Shown here: positions 9,293 through 17,285 of the stretch, one piece after another | Position numbering within the stretch: position 1 is the first letter of the stretch | Layout of the letters: each line of letters starts with the position of its first letter | NCBI GenBank assembly: GCA_015492715.1 | Contig: WGEO01000054.1 | Coordinates: forward strand, 1 to 33,191 | Reading direction: 5' to 3' | Origin: Phycisphaerales bacterium | GTDB lineage: Bacteria > Planctomycetota > Phycisphaerae > Phycisphaerales > UBA1924 | DNA: 33,191 bases | The notes under the pieces: model-generated | What the model was told of the DNA's origin: nothing | What the model saw: the letters and a program-made list of their open reading frames with translations, nothing else | The model's database searches: none | Made by a program: the position numbers and the translations under genes

Positions 9293-9423
9293 CGGGTCTG
9301 CGGGCTGGGGCCTCTGTGCCGACGGCGTCGACCCCGTCGGGCTTGCCGGTCTCAACGAAGGCCCGATCCGGACCGATGCTCGCAGAGCGGGCACAGGTGC
9401 GCGCGCAGATTCCGGGGTCATCC

Positions 9424-10581
9424 ATGCTCTTTGGCGGCAGGCACAGGCAATCGGCGGGGGTGCTGGGGAAGGTGGCGTCATCGCGTCCCATCGCGGTCGA
9501 CTTCGGCGCCACCTGCATGAAGGTCCTGCAACTGAGTGCGGGCGATCCGCCCGGGCTGGTGGCGGCCGCGTGCGTGCCGACGCCCGAGCAGTTCCGTTAT
9601 AACGCGGGCCGGCGCCTGAACTGGCAGGTCGAGCAACTCGGTCCGATCATCCGCAAGGGTGGGTTCCGCGGGCGCCGCGTGGCGTGCGTCCTGCCGAGTT
9701 CCAGCACCTTCTGCAAGCACATGCAGGTTTCGCTGGGCGAGGGCGTTGATGCGCGGGCGGTCGTGGAGTCGGCGATCCCCGCGGAACTGAATTGCCCCGC
9801 CGAGGCGCTCATCATGCGTCATCACGAGGTGGGTCAGGTGGGCAAGACGGGAGGGCGCACGGAACTGATCTGCATGGCGACGCCCCGTGTGCTGGTCCAG
9901 AAGATCATGGACGCCCTGCGCAGGGCACGCCTCGAGGCCGTGGGGATGTACCCGGAGGTGCTCACGCTCCTGCGCGCGTTCGAGGGGCTGCGGGTTGCCG
10001 AGGCCGATCCGACGATGTACATCGACCTTGGCTGGTCGACGACGCGGATCGTGATCGCCCATGGGTCGGATCTGGTGTTTGCCCGCTCGATCGACATGGG
10101 CGGGCGTCAGTTCGACGAGGTCGTACAGCAGCGACTGAACTGCGATCCTGCGGGAGCCAATCGCACACGCCTGGAGTTGACGGATCTTGCTCCGACGGCT
10201 CCCGAGCCCGCTGCGACGACGGGCATGCCGCATCTGGACGCGCAGGTTCGCAGTGCGTCGGCGACCGCGACGGCTCCCGAGATCGACCTGAGCGAGCCGC
10301 TGGAGATGCTGACCGACGAGATCAGCATGTGCGTGCGGTACCACGCGTCGGTTTTTCCCGAGCATCAGATCGCATCGGCGGTCTTCGTGGGAGGGGAGGC
10401 CCGCCAGCGTGCGCTCTGCGAGCACATCGCCCGCACCCTGCGCCTGCCGGGGCATGCGGCGGACCCGATGGCGCGGGTCGCCCGCACGGGCAGAGAGACG
10501 GTCTCTGGTGTGGACCTCAAGGCCCAGCAGCCCGGCTGGGCGAGCGTGCTCGGCGCCTGCCTGAGCCCGACGGATCTGTAA
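9424..10581 (+). CDS. pilM: type IV pilus assembly protein PilM-like ATPase
   Basis: Actin-like fold signatures (PIAVDFGATCMKVLQL; YIDLGWSTTRIVIAHGSDLVFARSIDMGGRQFDE; SAVFVGGEARQ). First gene of a pilM-N-O-P-B order. Confidence 0.85.
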   Translation: MLFGGRHRQSAGVLGKVASSRPIAVDFGATCMKVLQLSAGDPPGLVAAACVPTPEQFRYNAGRRLNWQVEQLGPIIRKGGFRGRRVACVLPSSSTFCKHMQVSLGEGVDARAVVESAIPAELNCPAEALIMRHHEVGQVGKTGGRTELICMATPRVLVQKIMDALRRARLEAVGMYPEVLTLLRAFEGLRVAEADPTMYIDLGWSTTRIVIAHGSDLVFARSIDMGGRQFDEVVQQRLNCDPAGANRTRLELTDLAPTAPEPAATTGMPHLDAQVRSASATATAPEIDLSEPLEMLTDEISMCVRYHASVFPEHQIASAVFVGGEARQRALCEHIARTLRLPGHAADPMARVARTGRETVSGVDLKAQQPGWASVLGACLSPTDL

Positions 10582-10593
10582 GGAGGCGACGCG

Positions 10594-11427
10594 ATGTTCA
10601 AGACAACACGCCCGGACTCGGGCGGCTCGTTCCTTCCGGCGGATTATGTGCAGGCCAAGGCCGAGCATCGTGCCAACTTTCTGACCATCCTGCTCTTCCT
10701 CGTCATCATGTTCCTGCTCGTCAGTGCGTTCCTGATCACGAACCGCAGGTGGCAGGCGGTGCGGGAGCGCGACGCGGCCGTGTCCGTCGCATACGAGCAG
10801 GAGGCGGGCAAGATCAAGCAGTTGCACGAGCTGGAGCGCAGGCAGGCCGAGATCGCCGAGAAGGCCGAGATCGTCAACGCCCTGCACGAGCGGATCGGGC
10901 GTTCGGTCCTCCTCGCCGAGATCAACACACGCAGGCCCAACGACGATGTGGACATCCTGGAACTGGAACTCGAGGGCAAGCGGATCAAGACCCAGCCCAA
11001 GGCGGATCCCAGGCAGCGCAAGGGCAAGGTCCGGAACCTGAGCTCCAAGGCCCGCGTCCGCGAGAAGAATCAGGAGAACGATCGTCCCCGCGTCGAGCCG
11101 CCCCGTTTCGAGCACACGCTGAAGATCGTCGGGGTGAGCAGGGACAACGCCTCGATCACCGACTACCTCTCGGCCCTGGTCGATTGCCCGCTGCTGGAGC
11201 GGGTCGAACTGGCCTACATCGAGGAAACCATGCTCGAGGACGAGGACTTCCGCAAGTTCGAGATCCGTGCCCGCCTGCGCGACAGGGTCGATCCGCGCGA
11301 ACTCGATCTGGCCCGCTACGAGCAGTTGCGCGATGAGGTCGAGCAGGCAGACGGTGAGCACACGGGCGAGGAACGCACCGGCATGCTCGAGTCGATCTTT
11401 GCGACCTTCGGCGGGAAGGAGGGGTAA
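10594..11427 (+). CDS. PilN-like membrane protein of the type IV pilus inner-membrane complex
   Basis: Single N-terminal TM, coiled coil, position directly after pilM. Confidence 0.65.
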   Translation: MFKTTRPDSGGSFLPADYVQAKAEHRANFLTILLFLVIMFLLVSAFLITNRRWQAVRERDAAVSVAYEQEAGKIKQLHELERRQAEIAEKAEIVNALHERIGRSVLLAEINTRRPNDDVDILELELEGKRIKTQPKADPRQRKGKVRNLSSKARVREKNQENDRPRVEPPRFEHTLKIVGVSRDNASITDYLSALVDCPLLERVELAYIEETMLEDEDFRKFEIRARLRDRVDPRELDLARYEQLRDEVEQADGEHTGEERTGMLESIFATFGGKEG

Positions 11428-11430
11428 CCC

Positions 11431-11976
11431 ATGCGGTTCGGAGCCCGTGAACTGGTCCTGGTCGTCGTCCTGCTGGCAATCCCGGTTGCGAGTTACTTCC
11501 TTGTCTTCCAGCCCCAGAACGAGGCGATCGAGGTCGCCCTGAAGGAGATCGAGCACAAGGAACGCACGCTCGAGAAGCTCAAGCAGGAGACCGCACGCAC
11601 GGACGACCTGGCGCGCGCCATCGAGCAGTTCGAGGAGAAGATCGCCGATGTCGAGGCGCAGCTGCCCAGCGACAAGGGCGTGGACTCCATCGTCCGTCAG
11701 GTCTCGGACCTGGCCGTCGAGGCGGGGCTGGCCTCCCCCGCGCTCAAGAGCGAGGATCCGGTCCCGGCGGGGCTGTACTTCGAGCAGCCCCTGGCGATGT
11801 CCACCGTCGGCAGGTGGAAGGACAGCGGGTTCTACGAGTTCCTGCTTGCGCTCGAACGCCTGCCCCGCAAGACACGGATCCCATCGATGAAACTCAAGCG
11901 CGACTCGAAGAACGACGGTATGTTCGAGATCGAGTTCACGCTGAGCATCTACTTCCAGGACGGGGACCAGTCATGA
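11431..11976 (+). CDS. pilO: PilO-like (GspM-like) type IV pilus inner-membrane protein
   Basis: N-terminal TM, coiled coil, then ferredoxin-like PilO region (LPSDKGVDSIVRQVSDLAVEAGL...FYEFLLALERLPR). Confidence 0.75.
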   Translation: MRFGARELVLVVVLLAIPVASYFLVFQPQNEAIEVALKEIEHKERTLEKLKQETARTDDLARAIEQFEEKIADVEAQLPSDKGVDSIVRQVSDLAVEAGLASPALKSEDPVPAGLYFEQPLAMSTVGRWKDSGFYEFLLALERLPRKTRIPSMKLKRDSKNDGMFEIEFTLSIYFQDGDQS

Positions 11977-12650
11977 GCAACGAGTTGCACGAATCGCAGA
12001 ACCAGGCAGACCATCACCCTGCCCACGCGATGTTCCATGCCATCGACAGTGATGACGAGTCCCTTGCGCCGCCGCCCGCTCGCAAGATCCCCACGACGCA
12101 CATCACCGCGGCGTTCGTCGCGATCGTCGGAGGCGCATCCATATTCGCCATGCGTCAGATGGGCATGAAGAGCGGCATGGACTTCTCGTCCCGTCCGATC
12201 GCCTTCGAGAGCGAGTACAGCCCCGAGGATCATGCACGGTTCCAGCGTGTGCTCGCGGAACTCGAGATGAGCGACATGCTCGTGCAGATCCCGCCGGAGC
12301 ACGCGGGCAGCAATCCGTTCTTCCTCGGCATCCAGCGTGAGGATCCGAACGCGGGGCGCCAGGCCGACGCCGCAGAACGCGAGCGTCAGCGCCGCCAAGA
12401 GCAGGCCCGCCGGGCCGCCGAGGCCCGCCTTGCGCAGATCCAGGGAGCACTGGAGCGGCTGCGTCTGGGGACCATCGTGACCGGGCGTGTGCCCGTGGCG
12501 ACGATCAACGATGAGATCGTGCGGGTCGGGGATGTCGTCGACGAGATGTTCACGGTAGTCGAGATCCAGCCCTCGGCGGTCACGCTCGAGGCCGACGGCG
12601 TGCGCTACACCATCACACCCCAGAGCCACGGCCCGGGCGCCGGCCACTGA
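11973..12650 (+). CDS. single-TM protein in the PilP position of the pilus operon
   Basis: ATG 11973 overlaps the pilO stop (ATGA). One TM (THITAAFVAIVGGASIFAM) and a small C-terminal beta region (GTIVTGRVPVATINDEIVRVGDVVDEMFTVVEIQPSAVTLEADGVRYTI). Confidence 0.6.
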   Translation: MSNELHESQNQADHHPAHAMFHAIDSDDESLAPPPARKIPTTHITAAFVAIVGGASIFAMRQMGMKSGMDFSSRPIAFESEYSPEDHARFQRVLAELEMSDMLVQIPPEHAGSNPFFLGIQREDPNAGRQADAAERERQRRQEQARRAAEARLAQIQGALERLRLGTIVTGRVPVATINDEIVRVGDVVDEMFTVVEIQPSAVTLEADGVRYTITPQSHGPGAGH

Positions 12651-12676
12651 CACATCCGCCACGACAGGGAGTCGCC

Positions 12677-14683
12677 GTGGGCAAGTACAACATCGACGAC
12701 ATCCTGGATCGACTGGGCGTGGATGCGGAGACCAGTGTCCCGCGCCGACGCCAGCCCGCACAACAGGAACAGGAGGAGGCCGCCCCCTCGCACACGATCG
12801 ACAAGGCGGAGCAGGCGTTCAGCCCGCTCCCGTCGATGCCCGCGCACCAGAAGCGGCCGGGCGCCGATCGCGACGATCCCGCGGCCCGCGCCAGGAGTGC
12901 CGATATCGCCGAACCCCTGGTCGGCAACGCCATCAACGAGATCTACACGCCCGACGGCGAGGGCGACGGCGAGGACCACCTGGCCCTGGGCGAGGTGCTG
13001 GTCTCGCGCGGCGCGATCACGCGCGAGCAGCTCACCAGCGCTCAGCAGGTGCTCAAGCAGAGCCCGAACCAGACGCTCCAGCAGATCCTGATCGAGCAGG
13101 GCGCCGACGAGGTCGAGATCCAGCGGGCCGTCGCCGAGCTCGCCCGCGTGCCCTTCGAGCGCATCGATCTGGAGAAGGGCCTGGAGGGCGGGTTCGACGG
13201 CAGGCTCCTGCAGCGCCTGGGAGTGGAATACTGCAAGGAGCACCTCGTCATCCCGCTGCGCACCGAGGGCAAGCGCGTCGTCATCGGCGCAACACGCCCC
13301 GACGATGTCTTCCGCATCGACGAGATCAAGCGCATGCTCGGGGTGCCGGCGATCAAACTGGTGCTCGTCGCCGCCTTCGATGTCCGCGGAGCGCTCGAGA
13401 TCGTCGGCGAGAGCGAAGAAGAGAGCGAAGACCTCTCCGATATCCTCGCCGATGTCGACGAGTCCGATGTCGAGGTGGCCAAGGAAGGCTCGGAAGACAT
13501 CAATCTGGAGGCCAAGGCCGGCGAGAGCCCGGTCATCCGCTATGTCAACTACATCATCCAGACGGCGATCAAGGAGGGCGCAAGCGACATCCACATCGAG
13601 CCGGGCGAGAAGAAACTCAAGGTCCGCTTCCGCATCGACGGGCAGCTCTTCGAGATGATGAACCCGCCCCTGTCCATGAGCGCCGCCATCACCAGCCGGC
13701 TCAAGATCATGGCGAACCTGGACATCTCCGAGCGGCGCGTCCCGCAGGACGGCAGGATCAAGTGCACCGTCCAGGGACGCAAGCTCGACCTGCGCGTCTC
13801 GACGCTTCCGACGCCGTTCGGCGAGAAGACCGTCATGCGCATCCTCGACACCAAGAGCATCAATGTCAGGCTCGAGGATCTCGGATTCAGCGATGAGACG
13901 CTCGAACTCTGGCGCGCTCAGATCAAGGCCCCGCACGGGATCGTTCTCGTGACCGGCCCCACCGGCTCGGGCAAGACCACCACGCTCTATTCCTCCCTCC
14001 GCCAGCTCGACAAGAACAAACTCAATGTCTCGACCGTCGAGGACCCGGTCGAATACTCCCTCGACGGCATCACCCAGACGCAGGTCCACGACAAGATCGG
14101 GATGACCTTTCCCGTCGCGCTGCGGGCCCTCCTGCGACAGGACCCCGATGTCATCATGATCGGCGAGATCCGCGACCACCAGACCGCCCTCATCGCCGTC
14201 CAGGCAGCCCTCACGGGACACCTCGTGCTCAGCACTTTGCACACCAACGACGCCCCGAGTTCCATCACCCGCCTGGTCAATATCGGTCTGGAGCCCTTCC
14301 TGCTCGGGGCGGCGGTCAACGGCGTGCTCGCCCAGCGCCTCGTCCGACGCCTCTGCCAGCACTGCAAGAAGCAGGGCGCCGCCAGCGACGAGATGCGCGA
14401 GTACCTGGAGATGCAGGGCATCGACGCGAGCAACATCTGGGAGGCCGAGGGCTGCGACAAGTGCCGAAACACCGGCTACGCAGGTCGCGTCGGCATCTAC
14501 GAACTGCTCGTCGTCGACGACGGGCTCCGCGATGTCATCGCCCGCAATCCCAATGTCGCCGAGTTCCGGCGCATGTGCCTCGAGCGCGGCATGGTCTCGC
14601 TGCGCGACGACGGCATGCAGAAGGTCGCCGCCGGCCTGACCAGCGTGCAGGAAGTCCTGCGCGTCACCAAGGAAGCCGCATAG
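12677..14683 (+). CDS. pilB: GspE/PilB-family type IV pilus assembly ATPase
   Basis: GTG start; MshEN-type N-terminus (GEVLVSRGAITREQLTSAQQVL), Walker A GPTGSGKTTTLYSSL, DPDVIMIGEIRD, tetracysteine CQHCKK...CDKCRNTGYAGRVGIYE. Confidence 0.93.
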   Translation: MGKYNIDDILDRLGVDAETSVPRRRQPAQQEQEEAAPSHTIDKAEQAFSPLPSMPAHQKRPGADRDDPAARARSADIAEPLVGNAINEIYTPDGEGDGEDHLALGEVLVSRGAITREQLTSAQQVLKQSPNQTLQQILIEQGADEVEIQRAVAELARVPFERIDLEKGLEGGFDGRLLQRLGVEYCKEHLVIPLRTEGKRVVIGATRPDDVFRIDEIKRMLGVPAIKLVLVAAFDVRGALEIVGESEEESEDLSDILADVDESDVEVAKEGSEDINLEAKAGESPVIRYVNYIIQTAIKEGASDIHIEPGEKKLKVRFRIDGQLFEMMNPPLSMSAAITSRLKIMANLDISERRVPQDGRIKCTVQGRKLDLRVSTLPTPFGEKTVMRILDTKSINVRLEDLGFSDETLELWRAQIKAPHGIVLVTGPTGSGKTTTLYSSLRQLDKNKLNVSTVEDPVEYSLDGITQTQVHDKIGMTFPVALRALLRQDPDVIMIGEIRDHQTALIAVQAALTGHLVLSTLHTNDAPSSITRLVNIGLEPFLLGAAVNGVLAQRLVRRLCQHCKKQGAASDEMREYLEMQGIDASNIWEAEGCDKCRNTGYAGRVGIYELLVVDDGLRDVIARNPNVAEFRRMCLERGMVSLRDDGMQKVAAGLTSVQEVLRVTKEAA

Positions 14684-14868: not shown

Positions 14869-16014
14869 ATGGATATTGGCATCATGAAGAGGCACAGGGT
14901 GTTGAGCGGCCTGGCGGGAGCCGCCGCGCTGGCGTCCATGGTCCACGCGCAGCAGATTCCAGATTTGGACGAGGATGGACGGATCTCGTTCGATGAGTTT
15001 GCCCTGGCCCTCCGCGATCGCCTGCAGAACCAGCCGATCCGGGACCTCGACGGCAACGGCATGATCGACGAGCAGGAGTTCAGACAGGCCATCGTCGATC
15101 TCTGGCATGTCATGCAGGGCGATGTCAATGGCGACGGCGTCATCGACGAGGACGACCTCGCCATCGTGGGCGCCAATCAGGGGCTCGTGGATGTGCCGTA
15201 CACCGTCGGCGACCCGGATCTGGATGGCGATGTCGATATCGATGACTTCCTGCTGACACTGGCGCAGATGGGATCGCCGGTCGTCGGCGACGACGACGAA
15301 GCCGTCCGCACCATCGCGCTCGTCGCCGCCTATGCCGCAACCATCGGCACGGCGGAAAGCCCGGTACATCACACATACTTCTCATCGACATGGCCGCCGG
15401 ATCACAACGGCGCCAAGAGCGACTTCTGGCCGCCGGATCACTCGGGCGGCATCAGCGGCCAGTGGGAGCGGGACGACCTCACGCACAACATCCTGCAGAG
15501 CGAACTCTGGCCGGGGAATCATCTCTATGTGTACAGCCAGATGTGGGATCAGTCGAGCCATGTCGTCGAGACCAGCACGCAGGTCTGGCCGTCCAATCAC
15601 TGGTTCCGTGTCAGTCTCGACTGGCCCGATGACCATGCGCCCGAGACGAGCCGGACCTGGCCGTCGAACCATCAGGTCGGCAACAGTGCGTTACAGGAGC
15701 CCTCGGACCACCATGCCCAGCCGAGCAGTCGCTGGCTCCACGCCGTGGACCTCAGCTCCGAGCGATGGCCGCCCAATCACGATCGGACCATGAGCCACGG
15801 CTGGCAGACGCACGATCGGGAGTTGAGCCTCCTCTGGCCGCCGAACCACTTCAGCGGTCCCTCGAGCACATGGCCCGACGACACACACTGGTCGGCGAAT
15901 CACTTTCTCTATCTGTCGAAGTCCCAGGGGCTGCCGCCCCGTGATGTCAGGTTCCCGCCAGATCATGACTACGGGACAACATTCCGCGACGCGATCGACA
16001 TGCTCACGCCATGA
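14869..16014 (+). CDS. secreted EF-hand/dockerin-like protein with C-terminal WPxNH tandem repeats (protein A)
   Basis: AGGAAG at 14855-14860 before the ATG; signal-like N-terminus (RVLSGLAGAAALASMVHAQ). Loops DLDEDGRISFDEF, DLDGNGMIDEQEF, DVNGDGVIDEDDL, DPDLDGDVDIDDF, then ~12-aa repeats such as SSTWPPDH, SDFWPPDH, SRTWPSNH, SERWPPNH. Confidence 0.85.
   Translation: MDIGIMKRHRVLSGLAGAAALASMVHAQQIPDLDEDGRISFDEFALALRDRLQNQPIRDLDGNGMIDEQEFRQAIVDLWHVMQGDVNGDGVIDEDDLAIVGANQGLVDVPYTVGDPDLDGDVDIDDFLLTLAQMGSPVVGDDDEAVRTIALVAAYAATIGTAESPVHHTYFSSTWPPDHNGAKSDFWPPDHSGGISGQWERDDLTHNILQSELWPGNHLYVYSQMWDQSSHVVETSTQVWPSNHWFRVSLDWPDDHAPETSRTWPSNHQVGNSALQEPSDHHAQPSSRWLHAVDLSSERWPPNHDRTMSHGWQTHDRELSLLWPPNHFSGPSSTWPDDTHWSANHFLYLSKSQGLPPRDVRFPPDHDYGTTFRDAIDMLTP
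15367..15966 (+). repeat. tandem protein-level repeat, consensus about x4-S-x2-W-P-x-[ND]-H, mostly 12 aa (36 nt)
   Basis: Trp codons at 15391, 15427, 15463, 15508, 15544, 15586, 15622, 15658, (Gln at 15694), 15733, 15766, 15802, 15835, 15871, 15889; most intervals 33-42 nt, mode 36. Confidence 0.9.
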
Positions 16015-17285
16015 CGGACGCGAGGGCGTGGAAGGCACCGGGCAGGGCCTCTGCAATCACAATCGGATGCCTGGCATGCGGGGCATATTCGTCCGATGCG
16101 GGCACGCCACCCGCATCGCCGCAGGACATCGTGTGGAATCAGCAGTGGCTGGAGGCCGCTTGGCCCGAGGAGCCGAACATTCCGGAGCGATCATGTCCGC
16201 CTGAGGCCCGTGACGAGATCGCGGACCCGGAAGCACACTTCGACTCGCCGCGATCGATCCTGGAAGCGGTGCTCCGTCGGGCGCCCGCCGATCCGGTCGT
16301 GTATCCGACCGAAGGCTATTACTACTTTCATTTTCGTTTGGGCCATCGCCGAGTCAGCGGCAACATTCGATTTGCCGCTGCGGAGGCGGGCGAGATAAGC
16401 ATCGGCTACTTCGACCGCGACGATCCTCGCAACGCGAAGACGGCCCGCTACCGCGATGGGGAGGACGGGGTTCGCGTGGCCAGGGTGTCAAGCGGATGTT
16501 TCCGCCTCGAGGTCCGGGGCGGCCCGTCGCGCGTCTTCCGTGTGATCGACCACACGGAACTGCCGCGCCCGCCGCTCCCGCTTCGCGCGGACGAGGAGAT
16601 CGTCGCATCGATCATCGATGAATCGGGTGTCCCCTTTGTTCTGCTCTGGCACGCGCCCTCGGCCAGCTTCTACTACTGCCTTCACGACGCGCTGCCGGTG
16701 GCCGAGGAGTTCGACAGAGTCCAGGGGCACGAGCAGTTCCTCGTGGGGCGACGATCGCGCTTCGTCCTGTTCGAGAGCGTCGACGCCAGACGCTATCTCG
16801 TCGGGGTGAAGGAAGAGGAGATCAGGAAGAACTCGTGGTTCGACGGTCCGTTCGATCAGGTCCCGCCGGATCTGAACATCCGTAGCAAACTCGAACGCTG
16901 CTACCCGTATGTACGCATGCGAGGGGGCATCGACGAGCACGGCAACTTCTGCGAACTTGCAGGACAGCGCGTGGCGATCAGTGCGTATCGCGACTATCGA
17001 TCGCTGGACGACCTCATCCGCGAGTGCGAGGCGATCTGGGAATCTGCGGCCTCCGACCACGATGCCGTCCTGCAGATGACATTCGAGTCCAAGCGGACAT
17101 TCCACGAAAGGCTCGCAGACAGGGCGGCCTCGCCTCGCAGGCACTGGCCGGCGAATCACTGGGGCTGGGTCAGCGGCCTCTGGCCGCAGGAGCACGCCCA
17201 GACGCTCAGCGCACACTGGCCCGCCAACCACTTCCCCGCCAACTCCCGCCAGACACCGCCGCGAAGTGACACGCAGGAGCGATGA
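16011..17285 (+). CDS. unknown protein with three C-terminal WPxNH repeats (protein B)
   Basis: ATG 16011 overlaps protein A's stop (ATGA). No family recognised for the ~370-aa body. C-terminus [33 protein letters not shown]-terminus ([20 protein letters not shown]) may be an export signal. Confidence 0.8.
17142..17231 (+). repeat. three WPxNH-type units with exact 12-aa period
   Basis: TGG codons at 17145, 17181 and 17217 (36-nt intervals) encoding WPANH, WPQEH, WPANH. Confidence 0.92.

Follow-up and report, generated by a model that had tools for sequence, protein, structure and literature searches.

Short tags on exported proteins that are served by a dedicated partner are known from the GlyGly-CTERM/rhombosortase (PMC3237569) and PEP-CTERM/exosortase (PMC1569441) systems of Haft and colleagues. 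There, as in the gene pair A-B that we describe here, a tag is carried by unrelated proteins, is co-distributed across genomes with one partner, which is often encoded adjacent to it, and occurs sporadically across phyla; as a functional analogy, these two systems are the closest to A-B. The pair is, however, a member of neither by their defining features: their tags are single and C-terminal, with a transmembrane stretch and a basic end, whereas the tag of A-B is multi-copy and has no transmembrane stretch, and on inspection the end of A lacks the hydrophobic stretch that accompanies PEP-CTERM, GlyGly-CTERM and LPXTG motifs. Their partners are membrane proteases, while B is a probable exported protein without a fold match and without a match to any sortase, exosortase or rhomboid protease.

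The pair also resembles cohesin-dockerin systems, which likewise combine an exported scaffold with a cognate domain, and A has EF-hand/dockerin-like calcium loops; but Dockerin_1 scores far below its cut-off in A (E 0.32, 11.7 bits against a cut-off of 22.9), a cohesin domain was matched in none of 25 B proteins, and recognition would fall on the repeats of A, not on its calcium loops. A third likeness is to ZepA, which is also exported, has conserved histidines and occurs sporadically, among others in planctomycetes and Proteobacteria. Neither the PEP-CTERM domain of ZepA nor its H-x2-9-H-F/Y-H zinc site (PMC10957091) is present in A, as read from the sequence. Our search of the open-licence literature for WPxNH-type or His-x4-Ser repeats returned nothing relevant and no description of such a system, in agreement with the proposal of the initial annotation that an undescribed two-component system is encoded here.

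Genes A and B (Table 1) lie in a 33,191-nucleotide stretch of DNA from a Phycisphaerales bacterium, called the window below. The coupling of the two genes through a shared ATGA, and the lack of relationship between their products apart from a repeated unit, were both noted in the initial annotation and are borne out by the sequence, A containing EF-hand loops and B belonging to no family. Both proteins have probable export signals, and at about half of the B loci of the Phycisphaerae group lipobox-like motifs were seen on inspection. The search near A for a sigma-70-like promoter was negative, which carries little weight in this phylum. Type IV pilus/type II secretion-like genes, encoding PilM, PilN, a T2SSB/CdsD_C-like protein and an MshEN-T2SSE ATPase, occupy window positions 9316-14683, and this block stops about 185 bases before A. 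A pilus or secretion link to A-B is not supported, because the pair has other neighbours in relatives; flanking genes vary there, and no conserved third gene was seen.

Table 1. Features of the A-B gene pair, in window coordinates.
Feature	Position	Strand	Basis or remark
Protein A gene, 381 aa	14869-16014	+	EF-hand loops and His-x4-Ser repeats; repeats of homologues positionally alignable across genera
Probable signal peptide of A (..LSGLAGAAALASMVHAQ)	14869-14952	+	Sequence inspection
Four EF-hand/dockerin-like calcium loops of A, residues 32-137	14962-15279	+	Pfam EF-hand families above cut-off
Repeat region of A: 15 H-x4-S units, 8 with WPxxH, mostly 11-13 aa apart	15367-15918	+	Sequence
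Terminal unit of A, FPPDHDYGTT (Thr at +5)	15952-15981	+	C-terminal element FPPDHxWxTT conserved
ATGA: TGA stop of A (16012-16014) overlaps ATG start of B	16011-16014	+	
Protein B gene, partner of A, probable export signal, 424 aa	16011-17285	+	
Probable export signal of B, lipoprotein-like, Cys 20 or 23	16011-16079	+	Sequence inspection
Core domain of B, beta-rich then helical	16227-17126	+	Confident AlphaFold model
Signature DGPFDQ of B	16842-16859	+	D278, G279, P280, D282 and Q283 invariant in 69/69; F281 in 67/69
C-terminal tail of B, three 12-aa WPxxH-x4-S units	17145-17246	+	Sequence; predicted disordered

Calcium loops above the Pfam cut-offs, as in an exported EF-hand protein, were found in A only (EF-hand_1, E 3.8e-9; EF-hand_6, EF-hand_7 and EF-hand_5 also above cut-off). 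Lanmodulin is weakly matched by the same stretch, with a score far short of the cut-off (E 0.005). AlphaFold returned a poorly folded A (mean pLDDT 39), in which the repeats look disordered; a solenoid fold was considered for these repeats and is not supported, since the model gave them no confident fold.

The initial annotation identified the element shared by A and B as a WPxNH repeat, present at the end of B as three exact 12-residue units. Both proteins do carry the units, and those of B are exactly equal in length and spacing (12 residues, with histidines at 383, 395 and 407), but they differ in sequence, and W-P proves to be a local decoration: what does not vary is a histidine followed, five residues on, by a serine. 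Several units of A keep H-x4-S after losing W-P (for example DLTHNILQS, SRWLHAVDLS and GWQTHDRELS), so that the unit common to A and B is, as read from these sequences, His-x4-Ser, with WPxN an optional planctomycete flavour. We rejected WPxNH as the defining unit, as W-P is missing from some A units and from all partners outside planctomycetes. When serines were counted at each distance after histidine, with the expectation obtained by shuffling, serine stood at His+5 in 17 of 20 cases in the repeat region of A (2.3 expected, z 10; the units here number 17 if overlapping HH pairs are included) and in 3 of 5 in the tail of the window's B (0.4 expected); chance does not account for the unit. 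The excess is also seen in larger samples, at 300/399 in 22 homologous repeat regions (51 expected, z 39) and 59/88 in pooled B tails (7.3 expected, z 21), while the same counting gave nothing notable in the N-terminal part of A or in the B core. Around the unit all residues except His and Ser vary freely, and many W/H/S columns of the A repeats are invariant among 13 homologues. Other carriers of the motif were sought with a DNA pattern for WPx[ND]H over the whole 2.68-Mb assembly: 10 of the 12 matches fall inside A and B, a reversed control pattern gave 3 forward and 2 reverse matches, and no gene beyond A and B clearly has the units.

So many regularly spaced, exported histidines raise the thought that the chain traps zinc, copper or nickel, with B as its receptor or loader. 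The EF-hand loops of A would suit such a role, and ZepA, an exported zinc protein of patchy distribution that includes planctomycetes, offers a precedent (PMC10957091). We nevertheless consider metal handling improbable: the serine is kept just as strictly, and serine does not usually serve as a ligand of zinc or copper; the units need no His clusters of the H-x-H kind; and no transporter lies consistently beside the pair. An ABC-type permease, FtsX/DevC-like by eye, does follow B at L004 2300-3679 (the same as L057 8800-10179), and was not seen beside other B genes.

Searches of Pfam, of NCBIfam and of the sequences in the PDB gave no match for B. Its AlphaFold model (pTM 0.77; 196 of 402 residues above 90) has a confident core in which about 14 strands precede a helical part; the mean pLDDT is about 90 for most of the stretch between mature residues 51 and 345, and both ends are disordered. 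Foldseek comparison of this model with the PDB and with BFVD viral models gave no match (best E about 0.015-0.03, TM-scores about 0.1). Among 69 B sequences P99, E101, Y105, G117, D203, F251, R260, N274, D278-P280, D282, Q283 and R320 are invariant, and S205, E195 and D308 nearly so, across several lineages. Eleven of these residues are charged or polar (E101, D203, R260, N274, D278, D282, Q283, R320, S205, E195 and D308), a pattern that could be that of an enzyme and that a binding pocket would explain equally. No catalytic motif, cofactor or reaction was recognised in B, and no fold match points to a mechanism.

Within the window's family of planctomycetes the pairing of A with B in relatives, which the initial annotation had put forward as a check, proved complete. 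The profile of B found 20 of the 163 genomes of the window's family, and the profile of A reached its repeat region in exactly these 20, whereas 28 further genomes match only the EF-hand part of A (E 4e-13 or weaker). A His-x4-Ser gene directly adjoins B in all 20 B-bearing genomes, often as two in tandem, and the A-B junction is mostly an overlap or a gap of tens of bases. The same arrangement is present in a genome from another planctomycete family (L072). A typical planctomycete A-B locus also occurs on QWIH01000053.1 (L051), titled Leptolyngbya sp. PLA1, a title that probably refers to the culture and not to the organism. Units are present in 20 of 24 readable planctomycete B tails and in none outside planctomycetes; by this comparison the B tail is a planctomycete addition. 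One genome (G107) has fused the two proteins naturally, in a 670-residue ORF (L027 685-2694) that joins a leader and A-type repeats to the core and tail of B. This fusion ORF comes directly after another A-type ORF in the same frame, with one stop codon between them. The conserved pairing, this fusion and a unit that behaves like a recognition tag support part of the interpretation in the initial annotation.

A close-relative scan of genome contigs with the window's B as sole query found nothing, and viral contigs and plasmids held no relatives, but a scan of 84,980 species genomes with a three-row alignment did reveal B outside planctomycetes, in Rhizobiales (Nitratireductor, Aquibium and MAGs of the Xanthobacteraceae) and in a small number of MAGs that are unnamed or bear the label Gemmatimonadetes or Eisenbacteria. 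All of these B proteins lack the tail, the very finding that the initial annotation said would count against its claim; the link between B and the unit stands nonetheless, because the tag is carried there by the neighbouring protein, often an unrelated secreted protein built of His-x4-Ser. In Nitratireductor and Aquibium this neighbour, immediately upstream of B, is a secreted protein of 1171-1216 residues that belongs to a group of large secreted Rhizobiales proteins with PG_binding_1 and DUF11-like domains, and its C-terminal third is made of SHLKTGSPHNKLQ-type repeats, with His-x4-Ser about every 7 residues. Across the Rhizobiales partners the units (HRPPKSPHLPRGS, SHFKPKSHKKAKS, HIPRVSRAQNPP, HNVNRSRRRD) keep the spacing alone. 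In 20 such partners, picked by His and Ser content and not by spacing, from loci where a partner had already been seen, serine stands at His+5 for 549 of 706 histidines (77 expected, z 60). Small secreted proteins of the VQHWRWGSRGFHGRDRSHWR kind, also with His-x4-Ser, lie near B at other loci, so that the tag is found on scaffolds as unrelated as an EF-hand protein, a large PG_binding_1 protein and small MKKY... proteins. EF-hand loops are present in A and missing from several of the other scaffolds.

The near-identical tandem units of some Rhizobiales partners, with SHLKTGSPHNKLQ repeated more than 20 times, recall multi-copy precursors from which short peptides are freed by proteolysis, and B might then be a processing or export factor. 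We think this very unlikely: B has no protease family match, and the planctomycete units differ among themselves while each position is conserved between genera, unlike in precursors.

Clusters of 2-4 small secreted Trp/His-rich proteins (HWRWGS, HSRYWSHRRWGS) lie near B and divergent from it at L143 1283-1606, L144, L145 and L146 3610-5780; at least one paralogue of these, away from B (L161), lacks His-x4-Ser spacing. Two loci, L061 7713-9989 and L104 493-3167, have a tandem pair of B genes.

Each ORF near B was tested for serine at offsets 1-14 after histidine, with p below 1e-4 taken as significant. All 25 readable B loci of the Phycisphaerae group were significant at +5 and none at any other offset. 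In the Rhizobiales, 29 of 46 loci were significant at +5; offsets 1-4 and 6-10 gave no more than one, and offsets 11-13 gave 6-7, in which the repeat period is echoed. Among the 17 loci of this group (about one third) that failed the adjacent-partner test, some have a partner cut by the contig end (L104) or a small candidate just below threshold (L146, L107). The seven B loci outside both groups do not individually pass at +5, and the case for them lies in small pooled samples, with serine at +8 in neighbours from Eisenbacteria- and Gemmatimonadetes-labelled MAGs (13/27, 2.1 expected) and at +4 in those of two other genomes (10/15, 1.7 expected). Two B proteins in which DGPGDQ replaces DGPFDQ (L073 1348-2727 and L074 581-1810) go with heptad His-x3-Ser proteins, that is, with serine at +4, hinting that the sequence of B and the His-Ser spacing co-vary. 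Could the co-occurrence be an artefact of composition or annotation, produced by low-complexity ORFs or out-of-frame reading? The repeats are indeed low in complexity, and some of the genes are GC-rich with long antisense ORFs, but +5 is singled out of 14 offsets in separate lineages and on unrelated scaffolds, B was found by an independent profile, and 23 control loci without B gave no significant result at any offset; we therefore find this explanation hardly credible.

The tag also follows B between genomes. B is present in 40 of the 298 genomes of Nitratireductor's order: in 25 of the 29 that strongly match the N-terminal domain of the Nitratireductor partner (E 1e-88 or better), against 15 of the remaining 269 (Fisher p 5e-22, not corrected for kinship, and relatives share ancestry). 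Among the large PG_binding_1/DUF11-like proteins that we fetched, a His-x4-Ser tail occurs only with B in the genome. In 7 of 8 fetched orthologues from B-bearing genomes the tail has 29-57 units (two of these tailed orthologues lie on a different contig of the assembly from B); the exception is G759, with B and an N-terminal orthologue without the tail. Of the 19 N-terminal orthologues fetched from genomes without detected B, none has His-x4-Ser in the tail region, apart from a single chance match in one; they end instead in DUF11-type repeats or in Cys-rich or Pro-rich tails, although the absence of B is not certain for each genome because many assemblies are incomplete. Homologues of the small proteins, too, have units in five genomes with B and none in two genomes without it.

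We think it likely that B recognises the tag, or acts on it, directly. We tentatively prefer, among the possible forms of this interaction, that A and B work outside the cytoplasm as a dedicated pair, with B as a maturation factor that acts on the His-x4-Ser units. A would be an exported scaffold whose flexible chain displays the two-residue tag about 15 times; B, exported and here probably lipid-anchored, would recognise the tag specifically through its core domain and chemically modify or join the His/Ser pair of the units, and the tagged protein would become cross-linked or anchored outside the cell. A planctomycete B, with three units, would itself be a client. We lean to modification over binding because the unit retains just two side chains, both reactive and at a constant distance from each other; because a single B gene has 15-58 units to serve, a ratio easier to reconcile with a catalyst than with a stoichiometric binder; and because the invariant residues of B are of a catalytic sort.

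The same co-occurrence, adjacency and fusion would also be expected if B were a non-catalytic binder that docks on the units, much as cohesin docks on dockerin; A would be a multivalent scaffold on which B collects to form an assembly at the surface. The tag on planctomycete B itself would then recruit more B, which is close to the co-assembly first suggested for the pair, and a lipoprotein-like B would tether A; the predicted disorder of the repeats is likewise that of linear motifs. Two conserved side chains among interchangeable hydrophobic or charged spacers are, however, thin for binding alone, as is a single gene for up to 58 units. As a binding pocket also explains the invariant residues of B, we take docking to be a serious possibility, if a slightly less probable one, and hold to modification only tentatively. 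The observation made in the initial annotation is thus confirmed, and its interpretation partly supported.

More doubtful, in our estimate, is the further step of taking B as the founder of a new exported enzyme family, with a hitherto unknown covalent reaction on His-x4-Ser as a multi-copy maturation tag. Such a reaction might be a cross-link, a cyclisation or a conjugation, and the tag would be in use in planctomycetes, in Rhizobiales and, with other spacings, in further lineages. A two-residue tag at a fixed distance, preserved across phyla amid changing surroundings and found on unrelated proteins with one partner, signals a specific biochemical activity, and 'low-complexity' His-rich secreted proteins become likely clients of a system. 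The genetically simple two-gene case in named Nitratireductor and Aquibium strains makes this activity measurable.
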